Shown here: positions 5,289 to 37,687 of the stretch, piece by piece
Numbering within the stretch: position 1 is the stretch's first letter
Layout of the letters: each line of letters starts with the position of its first letter
DNA from: an uncultured Anaerolineales bacterium
GTDB taxonomy: Bacteria > Chloroflexota > Anaerolineae > Anaerolineales > UBA4823
Reading direction: 5' to 3'
NCBI GenBank assembly: GCA_903872065.1
Contig: CAIQJJ010000670.1
Span: 1 to 39,212, forward strand
DNA: 39,212 bases
Position numbers and translations under genes: made by a program
The notes under the pieces: generated by a model
Databases searched by the model: none
The model's input: the letters and a program-made list of their open reading frames with translations, nothing else
What the model was told of the DNA's origin: nothing

Positions 5289-6396
5289 TTTACCCTTAGA
5301 GACTCTTTCCCCAATCAAGCCATCTGGAATGGTGGGGGAACGGTTAATCTTATTGGGTGTCTGGCTGATTGCTCTTAGCACAGTCTTGTTAGCTTTATTT
5401 GTTGGTTGGCAGACGCGCGGGCGCGCCGCTCCGGTGGAGGCGACGCCCGAACCGACGCATACACCGCTTCCTCTACCCACTCAAACCGTCTCGCCCGCGC
5501 AGGTGGAACTGCCTGATTTTTCGGTCAATGTCGAAACCCTTTCGCTTGCACCCCGTATCTCACTGCATACCATCATTCCTACTCGCCCTCGCCAGGTTGC
5601 CATCAGTTATACTGTGGGAACGGGCGACTCAATCTTTGCAATTTCTAAGAAATTTAACATCACCCCTGAGACATTGTGGTGGGCAAATGAAGATGGCCTT
5701 GCGAACCCAGATGCGATTGCTCCTGGTCTGGTGCTGCGCATACCGCCCGGGGACGGCGTTTACTATCGCTGGAAAAAAGGCGATACGCTGCCGGGGGTGG
5801 CCGCCCGCTATAAGGTAACAGTGGATGATATTATAGGCTTTTTGGGAAACCAACTGGACTTGATCGATCCCCAGGTCAAAACAGGGCAGTGGCTGATGCT
5901 TCCAAACGCCAAAGGTGAGTTTAAGCAGTGGGTGGTGCCTACCATCCCGCGTGGCAAAGCTGGCGTCACCAAAAGCTCCCTGGGGCCTGGGGCTTGTGAG
6001 GGCGGCTATGATGGCGCGAATGGAACAGGAGCTTTCATTTGGCCGGCAGGCAGTCACATCGTTTCAGGCAACGATTATTGGTCCGGTCATTTAGGGATTG
6101 ATATTGGCCTGAGTTTTGGCGACGCCATTGTTGCTTCGGATAGCGGCGTGGTTGTGTTCGCGGGTTGGTCTTATGGCGGCTATGGATATATGGTCATGCT
6201 TGATCATGGCAATGGCTACCAAACCTTATACGCTCACCTGGATAGCGTAGGGGTAGGTTGTGGACAGAGTGTGGGACAGGGGCAGTATTTGGGCGGCGGC
6301 GGCAGTTCAGGAAATTCTACTGGCCCGCATTTACACTTTGAAGTGCGTTTGAACAGCGGTTGGGTTAGCCCCTGGTATGTGCTGCCCGCGCCGTAG
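5278..6396 (+). CDS. Membrane-anchored LysM/M23 peptidoglycan endopeptidase
   Basis: Probable cell-wall hydrolase. It has a cytoplasmic N-terminus, one TM helix (residues 23-43) and a Pro/Thr-rich stalk. Two LysM domains follow (about 110-157 and 162-211), then a C-terminal M23 LytM-type domain (253-372). Zinc ligands are visible in HLGID (His271, Asp275) and HLH (His353), with His320 in LYAHL as a catalytic residue. The ATG at 5278 overlaps the end of rho by 11 bp and needs no upstream extension. This makes a 372-residue protein and suggests translational coupling to rho. No other gene in the window is an obvious partner. Confidence 0.9.
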   Translation: MKTDLPLETLSPIKPSGMVGERLILLGVWLIALSTVLLALFVGWQTRGRAAPVEATPEPTHTPLPLPTQTVSPAQVELPDFSVNVETLSLAPRISLHTIIPTRPRQVAISYTVGTGDSIFAISKKFNITPETLWWANEDGLANPDAIAPGLVLRIPPGDGVYYRWKKGDTLPGVAARYKVTVDDIIGFLGNQLDLIDPQVKTGQWLMLPNAKGEFKQWVVPTIPRGKAGVTKSSLGPGACEGGYDGANGTGAFIWPAGSHIVSGNDYWSGHLGIDIGLSFGDAIVASDSGVVVFAGWSYGGYGYMVMLDHGNGYQTLYAHLDSVGVGCGQSVGQGQYLGGGGSSGNSTGPHLHFEVRLNSGWVSPWYVLPAP

Positions 6397-6458
6397 GATG
6401 TGAAAGGCGTAAAAAAATTTTGCGCTTTGCATAAAGTTATTGAAAAAAGGAGATTTTT

Positions 6459-6641
6459 ATGGCTAAGAACAACAATAGTGAGCCTTCGACCGAGACGATT
6501 GCAGAAACCGACAACTATATCGTCTGGCGTGCAGAAGAGCCGGATGGCGAGGTATCTTACCATCTGGAACTGAATAATGTGACTTTGCATTTCTTTCAAG
6601 AAGAATGGGACGAATTTCTCGACCTGGTGAAGGGATTATAG
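6459..6641 (+). CDS. Small acidic conserved-type protein, 60 residues
   Basis: A strong ribosome-binding site (AAAGGAG, 6446-6452) precedes the ATG. The protein is acidic and soluble, begins with a low-complexity segment (KNNNSEPSTET) and ends in an aromatic, amphipathic stretch (LHFFQEEWDEFLDLV). I do not recognise a family with a known function. It is followed directly by a good terminator, which supports a real transcribed gene. The compact second half could be a protein-interaction module; this is inference. Confidence 0.75.
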   Translation: MAKNNNSEPSTETIAETDNYIVWRAEEPDGEVSYHLELNNVTLHFFQEEWDEFLDLVKGL

Positions 6642-6652
6642 CTGCAAACACC

Positions 6653-6703
6653 CTGGCCGCTTCGCTGCTTTCATCAAAGGCTGCGCGGCGGCCAGCGTTT
6701 TTT
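6653..6703 (+). terminator. Intrinsic terminator after the 60-residue gene
   Basis: CTGGCCGC (6653-6660) pairs perfectly with GCGGCCAG (6688-6695). A CGC/GCG pairing inside the loop is possible. Six T residues follow (6698-6703). It sits between two convergent genes. Confidence 0.75.
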
Positions 6704-6707
6704 ATCT

Positions 6708-8306
6708 TCAGCGGGTGATCTTTTCGACGTAAGAAATTACTCCCTGGCAGGGAGGGGTGAAATACGGGGAAATATTACTCCAGACAAGGGGCTGGTTATT
6801 ATTATAAGCAGAATGCACCGCGTAGGAAACACAGCCGGCCCCTGCATGGTAATTCGCCACAGTTAACCGCCACAAATCTTCATAACTGCTCACTTCGCCG
6901 CCCAACTTGCCGCTGGCATTATAGACAATTTGAGCTACTTGTTCACAATTTGCCCGGATGGTTTCAGCAAAGAGCTTGATGCTGAAATCTGCGTGGGTCA
7001 AATCAATTCCCATCGGGCAATCCGCGCAATCGGCTTTGGCTTTTAAAGCCAGCGCCCCGCGCAAGGTGGCTTTCTCATCCGTGCTAAGCTGCGAATATCC
7101 CACCTCACAGCGTGTTTCATTCAACACCAAAGGGCAAAATTGATTGTAAAAAGTTTGATTCCACAACAACACTGGTTCAGCCCCATTTTCAGTGATTTGT
7201 CCCAGGCCGAACTCTTTGGTGTCTTTGAAGATCCCCGGCCAGAATTGGCTCTCTTGAGCAAAAAGATTCTTCATCAATTGACCGGGAATGTTTGTTTCTT
7301 GGGCTGCCTGGATGATCGTTGCATCAAAGCGATTTTGCCATTCATCCACCAATGGGCGGGCTAATTCAAGTCCGCAAGCATTGGCATAGTCATTGGTCAA
7401 CAACCCGCCGCCATTGCAACCACTGGCATCTACCAGGCCTTGTGAAATGAGCCTGCCCGCCAGGAAATAGTAAGGTTCCTCTGAGGCCAGCAGCGTAGGC
7501 GACTCGGGGGTGGTCAACCAGGCCGGCGGCCCGCCCACTGGTGGAAAGACGCGCCAGACATCGGCGCAGCTAGCAACTTGATTGCCACGCCATTGATTGC
7601 TGATGATATCCACATACCACCCGCCGCCAATCGGCGACTCGCTGGCCCCGCTGTCTACCACCCGGATTCGAGCAGTGAAGTGTTGACTGGTATCGCCAAA
7701 AGTGGAGTCAGCCCAAAACTCGATCACATTTCCTTCAATCGGGGTTGGGTTAAGAGGGATAATGCAAGTGTTCGCCGCGCAATCAATCACCTGCTGATTG
7801 TAAATGGCATGAATGGTTGTGATCGACTCATTCGGCAGCGGTTCATCTCCACGCAGGAGCAAAGATGGAAGTTCTGGACACAAATTTTCTAAGGAAGTGG
7901 GAGTGCATCCTGTAAGCGAAATCCATACTTGTGAGGGAGGCAAATCCACCACCACAGTTTTTTCAGCCGGCGACTGATTGAGCAAATAAAGATAGACCCC
8001 CTCACAGGCAGAAGTATTCTCCTGCGCACAAGGGGGGGTGGACTGCCACTCCTGGTAGACCGCGGTTTCGCAACCATTCGCGACATCCTCGGCGCCAGGC
8101 CAGCCTTCATGATCGATGATTAACTGGCAAAGCAATTGATTGTCTGCCCACCGCATCAGCCACCAAGTGTATTCAGTATAGGCGATGAGAATCTCCGCTT
8201 TTCGGGTGGGAGGCGCATCCGCAGCAAAACTTTCTTCCCTGGCGCTCATGCTACAGAGAAGAAATAACACAAGACAAACCTTAACCCAGTGCCTGGAATG
8301 AAACAT
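6708..8306 (-). CDS. Secreted lytic-transglycosylase-like protein
   Basis: The start at 8306 gives a classic signal peptide (basic FHSRHWVK, then a hydrophobic VCLVLFLLCSM and a likely cleavage after AFAAD-like residues); a longer frame upstream would bury it. The mature N-terminal half (to about residue 325) is cysteine-rich with several Cys pairs and no family I recognise. The C-terminal part resembles SLT-type transglycosylases: AQES with the probable catalytic Glu352, GLGQITE (367-373) and ANYHAGAG (484-491). It may cleave peptidoglycan or only bind it. A TTGACA lies upstream on the minus strand (about 8333-8338) with a weak -10. It is divergent from the regulator at 8488. Confidence 0.8.
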   Translation of the reverse strand: MFHSRHWVKVCLVLFLLCSMSAREESFAADAPPTRKAEILIAYTEYTWWLMRWADNQLLCQLIIDHEGWPGAEDVANGCETAVYQEWQSTPPCAQENTSACEGVYLYLLNQSPAEKTVVVDLPPSQVWISLTGCTPTSLENLCPELPSLLLRGDEPLPNESITTIHAIYNQQVIDCAANTCIIPLNPTPIEGNVIEFWADSTFGDTSQHFTARIRVVDSGASESPIGGGWYVDIISNQWRGNQVASCADVWRVFPPVGGPPAWLTTPESPTLLASEEPYYFLAGRLISQGLVDASGCNGGGLLTNDYANACGLELARPLVDEWQNRFDATIIQAAQETNIPGQLMKNLFAQESQFWPGIFKDTKEFGLGQITENGAEPVLLWNQTFYNQFCPLVLNETRCEVGYSQLSTDEKATLRGALALKAKADCADCPMGIDLTHADFSIKLFAETIRANCEQVAQIVYNASGKLGGEVSSYEDLWRLTVANYHAGAGCVSYAVHSAYNNNQPLVWSNISPYFTPPCQGVISYVEKITR

Positions 8307-20559: not shown

Positions 20560-20584
20560 CCAGCATTCCTTGTTGGTTGTTCTA

Positions 20585-21217
20585 ATGAGAATCCTCGCTG
20601 TTAGCGACACTGTGATCTCCTCGTTGTACCACCCGAAACTATTGGAGGTGTTTGGACGGATTGATCTGGTGATTTCTTGCGGCGATTTGCCTTATGCCTA
20701 TGTAGAATACCTGGTCAGCAAATTGGATGTGCCGACATTTTATGTGCGGGGCAATCATTGCGCGCAACCAGGGCCCAACGATACCGGTCAGCTCTCCGAA
20801 CCGCAGGGCGCTACAGACCTGCATCGCCGCCTGGCGCGTCAGAACGGGGTTTTATTCGCTGGCGTCGAAGGTTCGCTGCGCTATCGTCCAGGGCCCTTTC
20901 AGTACAGCCAAAACGAAATGTGGCTGCATGTTTGGTCGTTGGTGCCGGGGATGCTTTGGAATCGCCGCCGCTATGGCCGGTATGTGGATATTTTTGTAAC
21001 CCATGCGCCCAGCGCCGGCATTCATGATCAGCCCGATCTACCGCACCAGGGCATCCGCGCCTTTCGTTGGTTGGTGTCTACTTTTAAGCCGCGCTACCAT
21101 ATTCACGGACATATTCATACTTATCGGCCAGATACCATTATGGAGACGCAGGTTGGCCCGACGACTGTGCTGAATGCCTATGGCTACCGTTTTATTCAGT
21201 GGGAACTAACGACATAG
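20585..21217 (+). CDS. Calcineurin-like metallophosphoesterase
   Basis: A 210-residue protein with the family motifs GD (CGDLPY, Asp34), GNH (RGNHC, 56-58), THAPS and GHIH (HGHIHTY). The first motif, normally DxH, reads Asp8-Thr9-Val10, so one metal ligand is missing or replaced. The substrate is unknown; phosphodiesters, nucleotides or phosphoproteins are all possible. The ATG lies 25 nt after cheB, suggesting an operon. Its stop overlaps the end of the convergent universal-stress gene by 12 bp. Confidence 0.85.
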   Translation: MRILAVSDTVISSLYHPKLLEVFGRIDLVISCGDLPYAYVEYLVSKLDVPTFYVRGNHCAQPGPNDTGQLSEPQGATDLHRRLARQNGVLFAGVEGSLRYRPGPFQYSQNEMWLHVWSLVPGMLWNRRRYGRYVDIFVTHAPSAGIHDQPDLPHQGIRAFRWLVSTFKPRYHIHGHIHTYRPDTIMETQVGPTTVLNAYGYRFIQWELTT

Positions 21218-22948
21218 CAAAACCGGGTTAGACGTGCTGCGCAGAACACGATCGACCACATCATCAAAAATAACGTTGAGCAGTGGGCCGCGACGATAGC
21301 CTCCCATGATGATCAGATCGCTGCTGTGGAGCGTGGCATTAATCAGAATGGCGGCTGCCACCGGGCCGCGTTTTTCAACGACATACGAAGCTTGCACCCC
21401 GTGCGCTTCAAGGTAGGCGCGGGCTTTGGCTTGGGTTTCAGGCAGCACGCGATCTTTTTGTAAAACGGTAATCACAACCAGGGGGATTTGCCATTGTCCT
21501 GCCAGGTAGGTGGCTACGTAGAGCGCCTCTTCAGCTTTGGGGCTGCCATCGTATGCCAGCAGGGCGCTGCGCAGGGAACTGACCTGCCGTGGGGCGGCTA
21601 AAACCGGGGCTTCGCAGCCTTGAATGATGGCCCGAAAGCCCGAACGAAAGCGTCGCAATGGCTGCGGCAGTGGTGGATAAGACAAATTAACGACGACCAG
21701 ATCGCTCCAGTGTGAGCGATGGCGAATCTGGCTGCTTACCACCCCATTCACTAACGCCAGGTTGCCAGAGATGTTTTCTTCCTGGCAGCGTTGTTCAAAA
21801 TGCTTCTGGATTGGTTCAAGATCAGCCTCCCTTGCCTCAGGTAAGTGAACATGCAGCCCATAGATCTGGGAATTTTCTTTGTGGGCAATCACCAACGCCT
21901 GTTCTAATGCAACCCAACCTTTCGGACTGCCGCTGATGGGGGTCAAGATTCGGGTGAAAAGTCGGTCATTGCGCTGCGCGCCGATCCTTTCCTGTCGCCA
22001 AAAACCGGGCGGCGGCCCGGGCTCAAGCGGCTCAATCGTCAAACGGTCGCGCAGCGAATTTGTCAGGCGATGGATCAAACGATCGAGCCGTGGGCTAAAG
22101 CGATGCGCCAGATCGTCCGCCGCGGCCTCTGTACCGACTTGCCAACCCAGGGTTTTTTCCAGTTCGGCGCGGTGGTCGGCAAGCCACAGGTAGAGATCGG
22201 TTTCGGTGCGGCCCGGAAAATCGCGCAGCAAGGCTCGCCGCCGGATCGCTTGCACTGCGGGGAGATATACCGTATCGTACCAATCTGCCGCGGCTTCACT
22301 TTCACTGATAGGGCGCTTTTGCTCCAAACCCATAAAATAACGATGCACCGAGATATGTTCGCTCAAGATGGCATATTGTCCCGCGGCGGTTAAGGTAAGC
22401 TCTGCCTGCGGACGGGTTTGGTGCATTTGGGTGCGTTCAAGAAATTCGACCTGTTCGGCTTTGATGATTAAATCTTCCGGGCGGACATCAGGGGTCAGCG
22501 GTACAGGAGAACGAACTTCGGTCACATAGCCCTGGATACTCGTCGCGCCGACTTGGCGAGCGACAGACACGCGGTGATTGCCATCTTTGACAAAATAAAC
22601 CTCGCCAAGTTGGTAAACCTCAATCGGTGGCAGGCCGGCCATATCGTCCATCGCGGTCTTCACATGCGCCCAGCGGTGTCGATCGATCCCTTCTCGCGGA
22701 AGGAAGTCACGAGTGAAATCTTCATAACGGTTGACGCTGCCTATGATGGCGTCCAGCGGAATATCTTGCAGGCCGCGGTCGGCCCCAGTTTGGGCTTTAA
22801 GCTGGCGGCGCACCTCTTCGAAAGACAACAACCCTACCGGTTGGCCGCTCAGGCGCGCCATAATTTCACGCAAGATGGCTTTGTTGCGCAGGTTGCGAAA
22901 ATCATCTAATGCAGCCAATGAGGTTGAGGTGATTGAATCCGATGGCAT
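21206..22948 (-). CDS. ParB/sulfiredoxin-like domain fused to tandem universal-stress domains
   Basis: A 580-residue fusion. The N-terminal part (about residues 60-150) holds VYFVKDGNHRVSVARQVGATSIQGYVTEV, a ParB/Srx-type core with the DGNHR motif at 122-126. A helical middle (about 180-320) has no family I recognise. Two UspA-like domains follow: one from about 330 (RILTPISGSPKGWVALEQALVIA) and one from about 455 (SALLAYDGSPKAEEAL) ending SDLIIMGGYRRGPLLN...NPVLLCR. The usual ATP-binding Gly-Ser near the end is not clear. A stress sensor is plausible. A TTGCGG-17-TATAAA pair precedes the ATG, but the -10 is only 4 nt away. Confidence 0.82.
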   Translation of the reverse strand: MPSDSITSTSLAALDDFRNLRNKAILREIMARLSGQPVGLLSFEEVRRQLKAQTGADRGLQDIPLDAIIGSVNRYEDFTRDFLPREGIDRHRWAHVKTAMDDMAGLPPIEVYQLGEVYFVKDGNHRVSVARQVGATSIQGYVTEVRSPVPLTPDVRPEDLIIKAEQVEFLERTQMHQTRPQAELTLTAAGQYAILSEHISVHRYFMGLEQKRPISESEAAADWYDTVYLPAVQAIRRRALLRDFPGRTETDLYLWLADHRAELEKTLGWQVGTEAAADDLAHRFSPRLDRLIHRLTNSLRDRLTIEPLEPGPPPGFWRQERIGAQRNDRLFTRILTPISGSPKGWVALEQALVIAHKENSQIYGLHVHLPEAREADLEPIQKHFEQRCQEENISGNLALVNGVVSSQIRHRSHWSDLVVVNLSYPPLPQPLRRFRSGFRAIIQGCEAPVLAAPRQVSSLRSALLAYDGSPKAEEALYVATYLAGQWQIPLVVITVLQKDRVLPETQAKARAYLEAHGVQASYVVEKRGPVAAAILINATLHSSDLIIMGGYRRGPLLNVIFDDVVDRVLRSTSNPVLLCR

Positions 22949-22993: not shown

Positions 22994-23056
22994 ATGGAAC
23001 AAGACCTTGAGGGTTTTCTTAAACCCTCAAGGTCTTGTTTACAGCTTTTAGGCTAG
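22994..23056 (+). CDS. Possible 20-residue leader peptide overlapping the long hairpin
   Basis: GGAGGG stands 6 nt before an ATG, an ideal spacing. The frame codes MEQDLEGFLKPSRSCLQLLG and most of it is the two arms of the 19-bp hairpin. It could be a leader peptide for the downstream histidine kinase, or a gene start into which the palindrome was inserted. Coding is not proven. Confidence 0.2.
   Translation: MEQDLEGFLKPSRSCLQLLG
22998..23039. repeat. Long perfect palindrome (19-bp stem), copy A
   Basis: Left arm 22998-23016 and right arm 23021-23039 pair perfectly around a 4-nt loop. The core AGACCTTGAGGGTTT matches the palindrome at 37653-37687 at 14 of 15 positions. It lies in a divergent intergenic region upstream of both neighbours, so it cannot be the terminator of either. 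Confidence 0.75.
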
Positions 23057-23081
23057 CGCCAAAATATGACCCTTGATAGAT

Positions 23082-27815: not shown

Positions 27816-28607
27816 ATGCGACGCGGCAATTTGTTTTGGGGCGTTTTGTTGATCCTGTTTGGGGGGCTGCTCTTTTTGCAGACGATGGGCTTTTTGCAAA
27901 ACATCAACGTTTGGGGTTTGTTGTGGCCGGTCTTTTTGATCTTGCTGGGCATTTGGATCCTGGCCTCACGCCATTTGCGTCGTTCTGCGCCGGGCGAACA
28001 CATCACTGTTCCATTGCAGGATGCCGCGCGCGCCAAAGTGCGCTTGAATCATGGGGCGGGACGCTTGAAGATTGGCGCAGCCGCTGAAAGCGGGTATTTG
28101 TTGGAGGGTGATTGCAACGGTGGAGTGAATGTGCAGACGCAGCGCCGCGGCGACTTGCTGGATGTTGAACTATCTGTGCCGACACAGTCTGTGCCGTTTT
28201 TGGGCGACGCGGCCTATTCTCTCGATTGGAATTTGAACTTTAACTCGCAGATCCCTTTAAACATGGAATTAAACACTGGCGCGCAAGAAAGCCAGGTGGA
28301 TTTGAGCAGCCTCAAAGTGACAGAAATACATTTGCAGACCGGGGCCAGCGCTACAGAACTGATCTTGCCGGCAAACGCTGGCTTTACACGCCTTTCGGTT
28401 GAAACCGGGGCAGCCTCAGTCAATGTGCGCATCCCTGAAAATGTTGCCGCCAGCATTCGCTCGCAAAGCGGCCTGGCATCCGTGATTGTCAACGAGGCGC
28501 GCTTCCCGCGATCTGGCAGCATCAACCAATCGCCCGATTACGAGACGTCCGCCAACAAGGTTGAGATATCGATCCAGGTGGGTGTGGGATCGGTGGAGGT
28601 GCGATAG
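27816..28607 (+). CDS. LiaF-like toast-rack membrane protein (first copy)
   Basis: A 263-residue protein. Two TM helices at the N-terminus (residues 6-25, with [19 protein letters not shown], and 31-50) resemble the LiaI/LiaF membrane module. A repetitive beta domain follows, with strands such as [19 protein letters not shown] and [18 protein letters not shown], the toast-rack fold of the LiaF C-terminal domain. LiaF proteins sense or restrain envelope-stress signalling in Firmicutes; a similar role is inferred. A GAGGAG site precedes the ATG. The stop is 7 nt before pncB. Confidence 0.82.
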
Positions 28608-28614
28608 CTCGTTC

Positions 28615-30159
28615 ATGAATGCCGCCAACCGTTCTACCGCCGAAGGGATTTTATTTACTGACCAGTACCAGTTGACGATGGCGCAATTGTATTACCGTTT
28701 GGGGCTGCAAGAGAAAGAAGTGCAGTTTGAACACTATTTTCGTGAGTATCCCGATTATGGTTTGCACAAGGCTGGTTATTGCGTCAACGCCGGCTTGGAA
28801 TGGTTGTTGGATTGGATGCAAGAAACGAGTTTTCGCCCGGAGGATATAGATTATCTGCGTACTCAGCGCACCCGTTCTGGAGGACGAGTATTTGCAGATG
28901 ATTTTTTGGCGTGGCTGGCGGGCAATGGCAATTTCAATTGTTTGAGTATGCAGGCGGTTCTTGAGGGCCGCGTGGTTCACCCAAATGTGCCGATCACGGT
29001 TGTGCGCGGCCCGTTGGCGATGGCCCAAATCCTGGAGACAGCCCTGCTCAACCAGTTGAATTATCAGATTTTGATCGCCACCAAAGCCGCGCGCATTCGT
29101 GAGATTGGCCGCGCCCAATTGATGCTCGAATTTGGCTTGCGCCGGGGACATGACCGCGGCGCCAACGCCGGCGCCCGCGCCGCCTTGATCGGCGGGGCGG
29201 ATTACACCTCCAATGTTGGCGTCTCGCATCTCTTGGGCTTGCCCCCCAAAGGCACCCATGCACACAGCATGGTGCAGCTTTTCATCGCCATGGGACAGAC
29301 CGAACTGGATGCCTTTCGCGCTTATGCGGAGCTGTACCCGGATGAGTGTTTGCTGCTGGTGGATACGGTGAATACACTGGAGAGCGGCGTGCCCAACGCC
29401 ATCAAGGTCTTTGAAGAGCTGCGCCGCAAAGGGTATAAGCCGGTGGGCGTCCGGCTGGATTCGGGCGACCTGGCCTTTCTGAGTATTCAGGTCGCGCGTT
29501 TGCTGAACGAGGCAGGTTTTCCCGATACGGCTATTGTCTTGTCCAACAACCTGGATGAGTTGGTGATTTGGCAAATTGTGACCCAAATTTCGCAAGAAGC
29601 GCCGCGCTACGGCGTGGATGCGGATGCTTTGGTCAATCGTCTGGTATATGGTGTAGGAACGCGTCTGATAACCTCCTGGGGCGATTCAGCTCTGGGTGGG
29701 GTCTATAAGTTGGTTGCGGTTCATCACGAGAACCAGTGGCGGCCGGCGATCAAGATTTCCGAATCGATTGTTAAGACGCCCAATCCCGGCGATAAGCGTT
29801 CATGGCGCGTCTACGATCGACGCGGCAAAGCCACCGCCGATCTGATTGCCCTGGCCGACGAAAACCCTGCCCTGGCCGATCCTTTGCTGCTGCGCCACCC
29901 AACCGAGCAAGCCAAGCAGCGCGCCTTGCCACGGGCTGAAATTTCGCGCATCGAACCCTTGTTGGCCGAAGTTTTGCGCCAGGGTGAGCGTCTTGAGCCA
30001 TCGCCGACCCTGGATAGCATGCGCCGCCGCCGCCAGGCAGATGTGGAATGCCTCGATCCGGGCGTGCGTCGCATCATGAATCCGCATATTTACCATGTTT
30101 CGCTCTCGCAGGAGCTTTGGAACTTAAAGCAGCGCCTGATTGACGAGGCGGCGCTTTAG
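28615..30159 (+). CDS. pncB: Nicotinate phosphoribosyltransferase
   Basis: Converts nicotinate and PRPP to nicotinate mononucleotide for NAD salvage. Family features are [16 protein letters not shown] near the N-terminus, [11 protein letters not shown] (with the phosphorylated-type His), [16 protein letters not shown] and [11 protein letters not shown]. At 514 residues it belongs to the longer NAPRT group. The ATG at 28615, 7 nt after the toast-rack gene, is chosen; upstream in-frame codons lie inside that gene and look like shadow sequence. It sits oddly inside the membrane-stress cluster. Confidence 0.95.
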
Positions 30160-37647: not shown

Positions 37648-37652
37648 AAAAC

Positions 37653-37687
37653 GAGACCTTCAGGGTTTCCGAAACCCTGAAGGTCTC
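37653..37687. repeat. Long perfect palindrome (16-bp stem), copy B
   Basis: The arms 37653-37668 and 37672-37687 pair perfectly around CCG. The core AGACCTTCAGGGTTT differs from the palindrome at 22998-23039 at one position. No T-run follows on the plus strand. Its right arm includes the stop of the GH3 remnant on the minus strand. Confidence 0.75.

Follow-up and report, generated by a model that had tools for sequence, protein, structure and literature searches.

What does a protein do that carries a ParB-like fold and two universal stress protein (Usp) domains in one chain, and with which partner would it work? This question is raised by a gene in a 39,212-nt stretch of DNA (here called the window) from an uncultured Anaerolineales bacterium of the phylum Chloroflexota (contig CAIQJJ010000670.1 of assembly GCA_903872065.1). 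The gene is an open reading frame (ORF) of 580 amino acids (aa) at positions 21206-22948 of the minus strand, which starts with ATG and contains no internal stop. We favor the reading, at a probability of roughly one half, that it represents a family of ParB/sulfiredoxin (Srx)-like plus DUF4032-like proteins, here in a Usp-fused form, and that these proteins act as a regulator or kinase that binds nucleoside triphosphates (NTPs) and works with a phosphoesterase. The gene for the phosphoesterase adjoins the window gene, and its recurrence beside members of the family is a new finding that was absent from the preliminary description of the locus.

The ORF, AlphaFold2 models and the lengths of the orthologues gave the order of the parts as a ParB/Srx-like domain, a DUF4032-like helical module, Usp domain 1 and Usp domain 2. 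The full-length model, computed from the window protein together with 75 sequences from named loci, had a predicted local distance difference test score (pLDDT) of 90.8 and a predicted template modeling score of 0.85; a model of residues 1-303 had a pLDDT of 93.5. Helices assigned by DSSP in the models occupy residues 1-50 (22799-22948; all parts of the gene lie on the minus strand). They are followed by the ParB/Srx-fold core at residues ~52-150 (22499-22795), which was located by Foldseek and VIA-align matches and by profile matches in the PDB, and by an all-helical module at residues 157-303 (22040-22480; DSSP), in which Pfam placed DUF4032 (PF13224) at residues 208-280. Usp domain 1 (residues ~332-455; 21584-21955) was recognized from VIA-align matches to tandem Usp proteins over model residues 328-580, and Usp domain 2 (residues ~460-580; 21209-21571) from Pfam and a motif search; the Pfam Usp model PF00582 matched two stretches of the protein (E 1.1e-19). 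The preliminary description, which proposed that a single chain joins a fold of the ParB/Srx type to a helical region and a Usp pair, is thus borne out by the models, Pfam and the structure matches. The stretch that it had quoted as the core of the first domain, KDGNHRVSVARQVGATSIQGYVTEV, lies at residues 121-145 as stated there, within a domain whose fold was recognized by profile and by structure.

When the predicted structure was compared with known ParB and Srx folds, as had been suggested, the N-terminal part matched ParB, Noc, sulfiredoxin, SerK and SbnI. All five Foldseek matches of model 1-303 in the PDB at E <= 0.001 were Noc or ParB chains; their alignments cover 239-251 columns with a root-mean-square deviation (rmsd) of 13-20, a poor superposition, so that the core alone counts. 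A compact match was obtained with sulfiredoxin 6ky4 (87 columns, rmsd 2.5, E 1.4e-3). The top 32 VIA-align entries, mostly over model residues 56-148, had Z scores of 7.7 to 4.8, a middling range (Z under 8) that, by the tool's own caution, common arrangements may also reach. Thirty of them were ParB, Noc, KorB, PadC, sulfiredoxin, SerK (a free serine kinase) or SbnI, two were unannotated, and Z dropped to 3.5 at the following entry.

At the sequence level the signal is faint. A 19-member profile of the N-terminal part found superfamily members in six of its eight PDB matches (E up to 10), with Noc as the best at an E of only 0.02; a 37-member profile of the core did so in 14 of 18, and its two best matches (E 0.10 and 0.15) were unrelated proteins. 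The window protein matched no ParB domain in Pfam, PF02195 included, and no NCBIfam model at E up to 1. Among the 37 members, the Pfam models ParB_N and ParBc_2 each matched four at E up to 1 (best 0.024 and 0.0025, respectively). We nevertheless regard the N-terminal domain as probably homologous to ParB/Srx, because the list of matches is consistent and the DGxHR motif is conserved. The family shares with the ParB-CTPase fold and the ParB-Srx superfamily (ParB, Noc, KorB, PadC, sulfiredoxin) the fold of residues ~56-148 and a GxxR-type phosphate motif, but it has its own signature, GSxxRYxDFxxxFLP, carries DUF4032-like helices after the core and is hardly reached by the Pfam ParB models.

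The motif of the putative nucleotide pocket is almost fully conserved. The equivalent of the P-motif (Box II, GxxR), identified by family conservation, is D-G-N-H-R at residues 122-126 (22571-22585): D122, G123 and R126 are present in all 164 family members compared (100 fused to Usp domains and 64 standalone), and H125 in 163. G70, F78 and R92 are also invariant in this set. Alignment conservation further defines the family signature I-x-G-S-x-x-R-Y-x-D-F-x-R-x-F-L-P at residues 68-84 (22697-22747), in which I68, G70, R74, F78, R80 and P84 are invariant in 76 of 76 fused rows. The helix and loop preceding PPI at residues 87-108 (22625-22690) would be the equivalent of the C-motif (Box I), judging from the analogy with ParB, the secondary structure of the model and a location N-terminal to the GxxR motif. 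Four loci (L033, L052, L077 and L105) were left out of two alignments, and one row (L026) contains undetermined residues. Nucleotide binding by the ParB-like domain is plausible from this conservation and the modeled fold.

Position 79 separates the fused from the standalone architecture: it is Asp in 60 of the 64 standalone proteins and in only three of the 100 fused ones, the other 97 having Thr, Asn or Ser. This bears on two versions of the favored reading, each of which we consider possible and which we judge about equally likely. In the first, the ParB-like domain would be a small-molecule kinase of the SerK/SbnI type, with which it has the fold in common, phosphorylating a metabolite from ATP or ADP, and the phosphoesterase would remove the phosphate. 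Of the structures listed by VIA-align, SbnI of Staphylococcus pseudintermedius was the most similar in sequence, with 29% identity in two entries (75 and 77 residues aligned) against 22% over 82 residues for the S. aureus SbnI entry; SerK, with E30 as its catalytic Glu, was among the matches, the gene partner is a phosphoesterase, and an acidic residue, D77, joined by D79 in standalone forms, is conserved before a helix. The replacement of D79 in nearly all fused proteins argues against a kinase, and the sugar-related and apparent proline-catabolism genes found near relatives indicate no single substrate. In the second version, binding of CTP or ATP would change the shape of the protein, as in a ParB clamp, and this switch, not being a metabolic enzyme, would control the phosphoesterase or some other protein. 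The best Foldseek matches being Noc and ParB fits such a switch, as does the fused clade, which retains the pocket motif and loses D79; the Usp fusion also has a parallel in archaea, where a 2025 survey (PMC12704722) describes fusions of the ParB-CTPase fold to CBS domains. Against it, no Box III (ENxxR) motif was recognizable by eye in the family alignments, and the helical module gave no clear match to a helix-turn-helix (HTH).

The helices that follow the core also bear on whether the protein is a chromosome-partitioning ParB or a DNA-binding regulator, which we consider very improbable. A Tsukamurella relative is annotated as 'chromosome partitioning protein ParB' (NZ_LR134459.1), and two weak VIA-align rows for the helical module (Z 3.0-3.1), from dUTPase-Stl repressor complexes, hint at a DNA-binding arrangement of helices; structural matches of residues 157-303 were weak throughout (Z up to 3.5). 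However, 17 of the 19 members matched DUF4032, rather than a ParB HTH model, in the segment after the core (best E 3.3e-9 at a limit of E 1), and no parA adjoins the window gene, whose two neighbors encode a phosphoesterase and a histidine kinase; parA was looked for in these two positions only. The helical module is shared with DUF4032, but it aligns only with approximately positions 86-160 of that profile, its C-terminal half, and the window protein itself, at 17.7 bits, is below the cut-off of 23.8. In the DUF4032 proteins of actinobacteria, the N-terminal domain is kinase-like.

The Usp pair is structurally clear. By VIA-align it came closest in the PDB to 3loq, a Usp of Archaeoglobus (Z 26.8), followed by TTHA0350 (two entries, Z 26.5 and 26.1), of which structure 3ab8 contains ATP. 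The C-terminal half of the window protein resembles TTHA0350 (PDB 3ab7 and 3ab8) over 229 and 233 residues at 30% identity (phmmer E 5e-13), but its Usp pair sits in a larger chain and the ATP motifs differ. The Usp ATP motif has the pattern G-2x-G-9x-G-(S/T). Searched in 76 fused proteins as G-2x-G-(8 to 10)x-G-(S/T/N), it was found in Usp2 of 55 and in Usp1 of only two, being absent from Usp1 in the remaining 74; in the window protein it was found in neither domain. There, R552, D562 and D563 stand where the family has G (49/76), G (73/76) and S (66/76), and this is the only row to have lost the G of position 562 together with the S/T of position 563. The earlier idea that both domain types bind nucleotides is therefore only partly upheld: the D-G-x-H-R motif is nearly invariant (163/164), but Usp1 mostly lacks its motif and Usp2 of the window protein has lost it. 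A chain that senses nucleotides through two different kinds of domain, as had also been suggested, would be a better description of most of the fused family than of the window protein.

Relatives of the first 300 residues were found in 136 of 301 sampled Chloroflexota genomes (E <= 1e-3). Many of the stronger matches fall in standalone frames of ~280-370 aa or in fused frames of ~550-600 aa; there are also matches that repeat the DUF4032-like part and relatives that have the ParB-like part only, such as that of locus L124 and a 159-aa Rubrobacter protein. Among named genomes there were at least 576 relatives, from which we took the best 79 loci by match to the N-terminal 300 residues, a choice biased to near relatives; they are mostly from Chloroflexota, with one labeled Pseudomaricurvus, one Bacteroidetes and three Trueperaceae. 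A single frame of 538-597 aa is encoded at 76 of the 79 loci, two others run off their contigs, and one (L105) has a 369-aa frame. A frameshift or assembly artifact joining two genes, which had been raised as a possible refutation, is rejected by the intact frame, by these single frames and by the tree; the fusion is real.

In the tree of 164 rows, a single branch (support 97) separates all 100 fused proteins from the 64 standalone ones, a distribution that requires one change. The tree was made by a quick method with a midpoint root, matches covering fewer than 220 profile positions were left out, identical domain sequences were merged, and the fused loci had mostly been fetched by their similarity to the window; its simplest reading is that the sequences probably record one fusion event. 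Probably, then, a two-domain ancestor was fused to a TTHA0350-like tandem Usp in a Chloroflexota lineage, from which the window gene descends. Outside Chloroflexota, DUF4032 matches occurred in 60 of 111 Deinococcota genomes (59 over the curated cut-off), and of 30 Deinococcota loci fetched, 29 had a relative spanning the N-terminal 290 positions in full and one (L137) had a partial relative. Further relatives lie on plasmids of Tsukamurella, Rubrobacter and Cetobacterium, and the DUF4032 search also matched the cultivated Thermus, Deinobacterium and Corynebacterium control genomes.

Several individual loci deserve mention. A fused member at 5983-7671 of locus L061, on a 1.47-Mb contig of Pseudomaricurvus alcaniphilus (Gammaproteobacteria), suggests horizontal transfer. 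Five loci (L036, L039, L079, L081 and L094) contain a second family-related stretch, which in L036 repeats the DUF4032-like part. One Deinococcota standalone gene (L162) is in two frames of 177 and 176 aa, possibly a frameshift. An origin of the family in mobile elements received little support: there were one partial match among viral contigs (residues 108-142), one phage record with 27% identity over 45% of the query, and four plasmid records with relatives, all called non-mobilizable.

The partner gene, at 20570-21217 of the plus strand (alternative ATG start at 20585), is convergent with the window gene, and the two ends overlap by 12 bp. Its product is a metallophosphoesterase (PF00149, E 3.2e-10). 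All 41 aligned rows, one of which (L111) represents the window region a second time, have GD, GNH, H145 and H179-G-H181, and 39 of them have H183. The Metallophos match and the GD, GNH, H and GHxH residues are shared with metallophosphoesterases of the YfcE/MPPED type, whereas the first motif is SDxx in place of the usual DxH; matches to individual proteins of this type were weak (MPPED2 3rl4, E 0.31; YfcE, 19.8 bits against a cut-off of 56.25). The phosphoesterase also matched the PADLOC phage-defense candidate PDC-S10 (E 1e-13), a name of which we found no mention in the literature searched. The window protein had no PADLOC match at E 0.01 and one of 19 relatives had a match at E 0.052. A defense system was set aside as a reading.

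The two genes often occur together. The phosphoesterase was found in 117 of the 301 Chloroflexota genomes (E <= 1e-15), as a single match in 116 of them; 114 of the 117 also have the family, which occurs in 136 genomes in all, and three have no family match. In at least 63 of the 117 genomes the genes are within 3 kb of each other, counting without eight rows that repeat the DUF4032-like part of a gene already counted. In these 63 listed pairs the phosphoesterase is upstream on the same strand in 52, downstream on the same strand in five, convergent in five and divergent in one. That a mostly single-copy gene lies this close this often is beyond chance, with the relatedness of the genomes left uncorrected. 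At 15 of 20 Chloroflexota standalone loci the phosphoesterase gene immediately precedes the family gene in the same orientation, with 1-179 bp up to the matched region. At 17 of the 21 paired fused loci the phosphoesterase is convergent downstream (16 at 9-146 bp, one at 1.4 kb), the other four having it upstream and co-directional at 31-86 bp. The pair also occurs in Tsukamurella, with an overlap of 11 bp between the genes, and, separated by an 8-bp gap, in Cetobacterium; both phosphoesterases are full-length relatives of that of the window (33% identity, E 9e-35 and 5e-40, respectively).

Such pairing could simply be inherited synteny without a functional tie. The convergent genes of the 17 paired fused loci share no transcript, and a nicotinate phosphoribosyltransferase gene likewise stays near the fused gene in seven of the 79 loci. 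Mere synteny is nonetheless unlikely, since the pair recurs in at least 22 sampled Chloroflexota families (counted by hand from the 63 genomes), in two further phyla and at two of the 20 Deinococcota loci compared, with differing orientations and mostly short gaps.

A number of points weigh against the favored reading of an NTP-binding protein that works with the phosphoesterase. To the middling fold scores, the faint sequence similarity to ParB and the weak hint of DNA-binding helices is added incomplete pairing: 51 of the 117 genomes have both genes, but the matches listed include none of the family at 3 kb or less on the phosphoesterase contig, and only 21 of the 79 fused loci, many with short flanks, contain the phosphoesterase. 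The co-occurrence is highly significant by Fisher's test (p ~9e-56), a value that is not corrected for phylogeny. In Deinococcota the pairing is mostly absent, the two loci above being the only ones among the 20. The ParB-only relative of Rubrobacter has no such partner beside it, and an annotated phosphoesterase 2.7 kb away does not belong to the subfamily of the window phosphoesterase. Finally, the reading is built from sequence, models and gene context.

Under the favored reading, the ParB-like pocket would bind an NTP through the D-G-N-H-R phosphate motif, as the fold and the nearly invariant residues suggest. The nucleotide state, or a phosphoryl group transferred from the nucleotide, might then be relayed through the helical module, and the phosphoesterase, given its recurrent pairing, may act on the same phosphorylated compound or may be regulated by the ParB-like protein. 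The Usp pair would add dimerization, and relatives whose Usp2 motif is intact would also sense adenine nucleotides through it; in the window protein the Usp2 sensor probably no longer works. A bolder and doubtful extension is that the two-domain protein and the phosphoesterase form an undescribed writer/eraser pair in four phyla, either a SerK-like kinase with its phosphatase or a pair acting on a nucleotide messenger. The Usp fusion would then be a derived stress sensor in which the pocket was kept and residue 79 replaced as an enzyme became a sensor.

On its other side, the window gene faces a divergent histidine kinase gene, starting at 23073, across a region that bears a perfect 19+19-nt palindrome at 22998-23039, as had been described. 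The kinase is rejected as a conserved partner: similar kinases (27-28% identity) were found at three of the 79 loci, ~3.4-4.1 kb from the gene and none adjacent. Because 28 places in the genome, that of the window included, match the palindrome core within three mismatches (none in the reversed control), the palindrome looks like a dispersed repeat of the repetitive extragenic palindromic (REP) type, and a role as a specific operator of the divergent promoter is unsupported. A further half site lies at 37650-37668. The nicotinate phosphoribosyltransferase gene of the window, at 28486-30159, is a piece of conserved synteny; in the seven loci mentioned it is upstream and divergent of the fused gene.

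Neighbors of the relatives vary. In Deinococcota (L155-L174), approximately half of the standalone relatives are near apparent proline-catabolism genes, named by eye: clusters resembling proline dehydrogenase (c3, 10 loci), pyrroline-5-carboxylate dehydrogenase (c5, eight of its nine loci) and a GntR-type regulator (c4, nine loci). Sugar-related neighbors are, in Tsukamurella, genes for a sugar ABC transporter and for GH13, a glycogen phosphorylase gene in Cetobacterium, and GH15 and MalK-type ATPase genes (Pfam) beside the gene in L192, the same gene clusters being present in L191. Other annotated neighbors (methylmalonyl-CoA mutase, lipoate ligase, a DHDPS-family protein and prolyl-tRNA synthetase) are unrelated, and a carbohydrate role of the family is no more than a lead.

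According to the 2025 survey of the ParB-CTPase fold (PMC12704722), recent work has established binding of CTP, ATP or GTP by this fold in a number of contexts. As described there, the survey used PF02195 at the gathering (curated) cut-off; it probably left out this family, because PF02195 matches only four of 37 members at E up to 1. The terms universal stress, usp and chloroflex are absent from its main text. We found no mention of DUF4032 in the literature searched, and no description of the ParB-like/DUF4032/Usp architecture or of the phosphoesterase pair in titles and the beginnings of abstracts of the papers listed, a search that mostly excluded subscription journals.

Compared with the preliminary description, the observation is now more widespread and better anchored; the case for ATP sensing is weaker in the window copy, and the lead offered by the neighboring gene is stronger. 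The family is a common branch of the ParB fold, being present in 136 of the 301 sampled Chloroflexota genomes, with DUF4032 matches in 60 of the 111 Deinococcota genomes, and the recurrent phosphoesterase provides it with a concrete, testable partner. These findings suggest that a widespread Chloroflexota family and the phosphoesterase beside it constitute an unstudied phosphate-handling or signaling pair.

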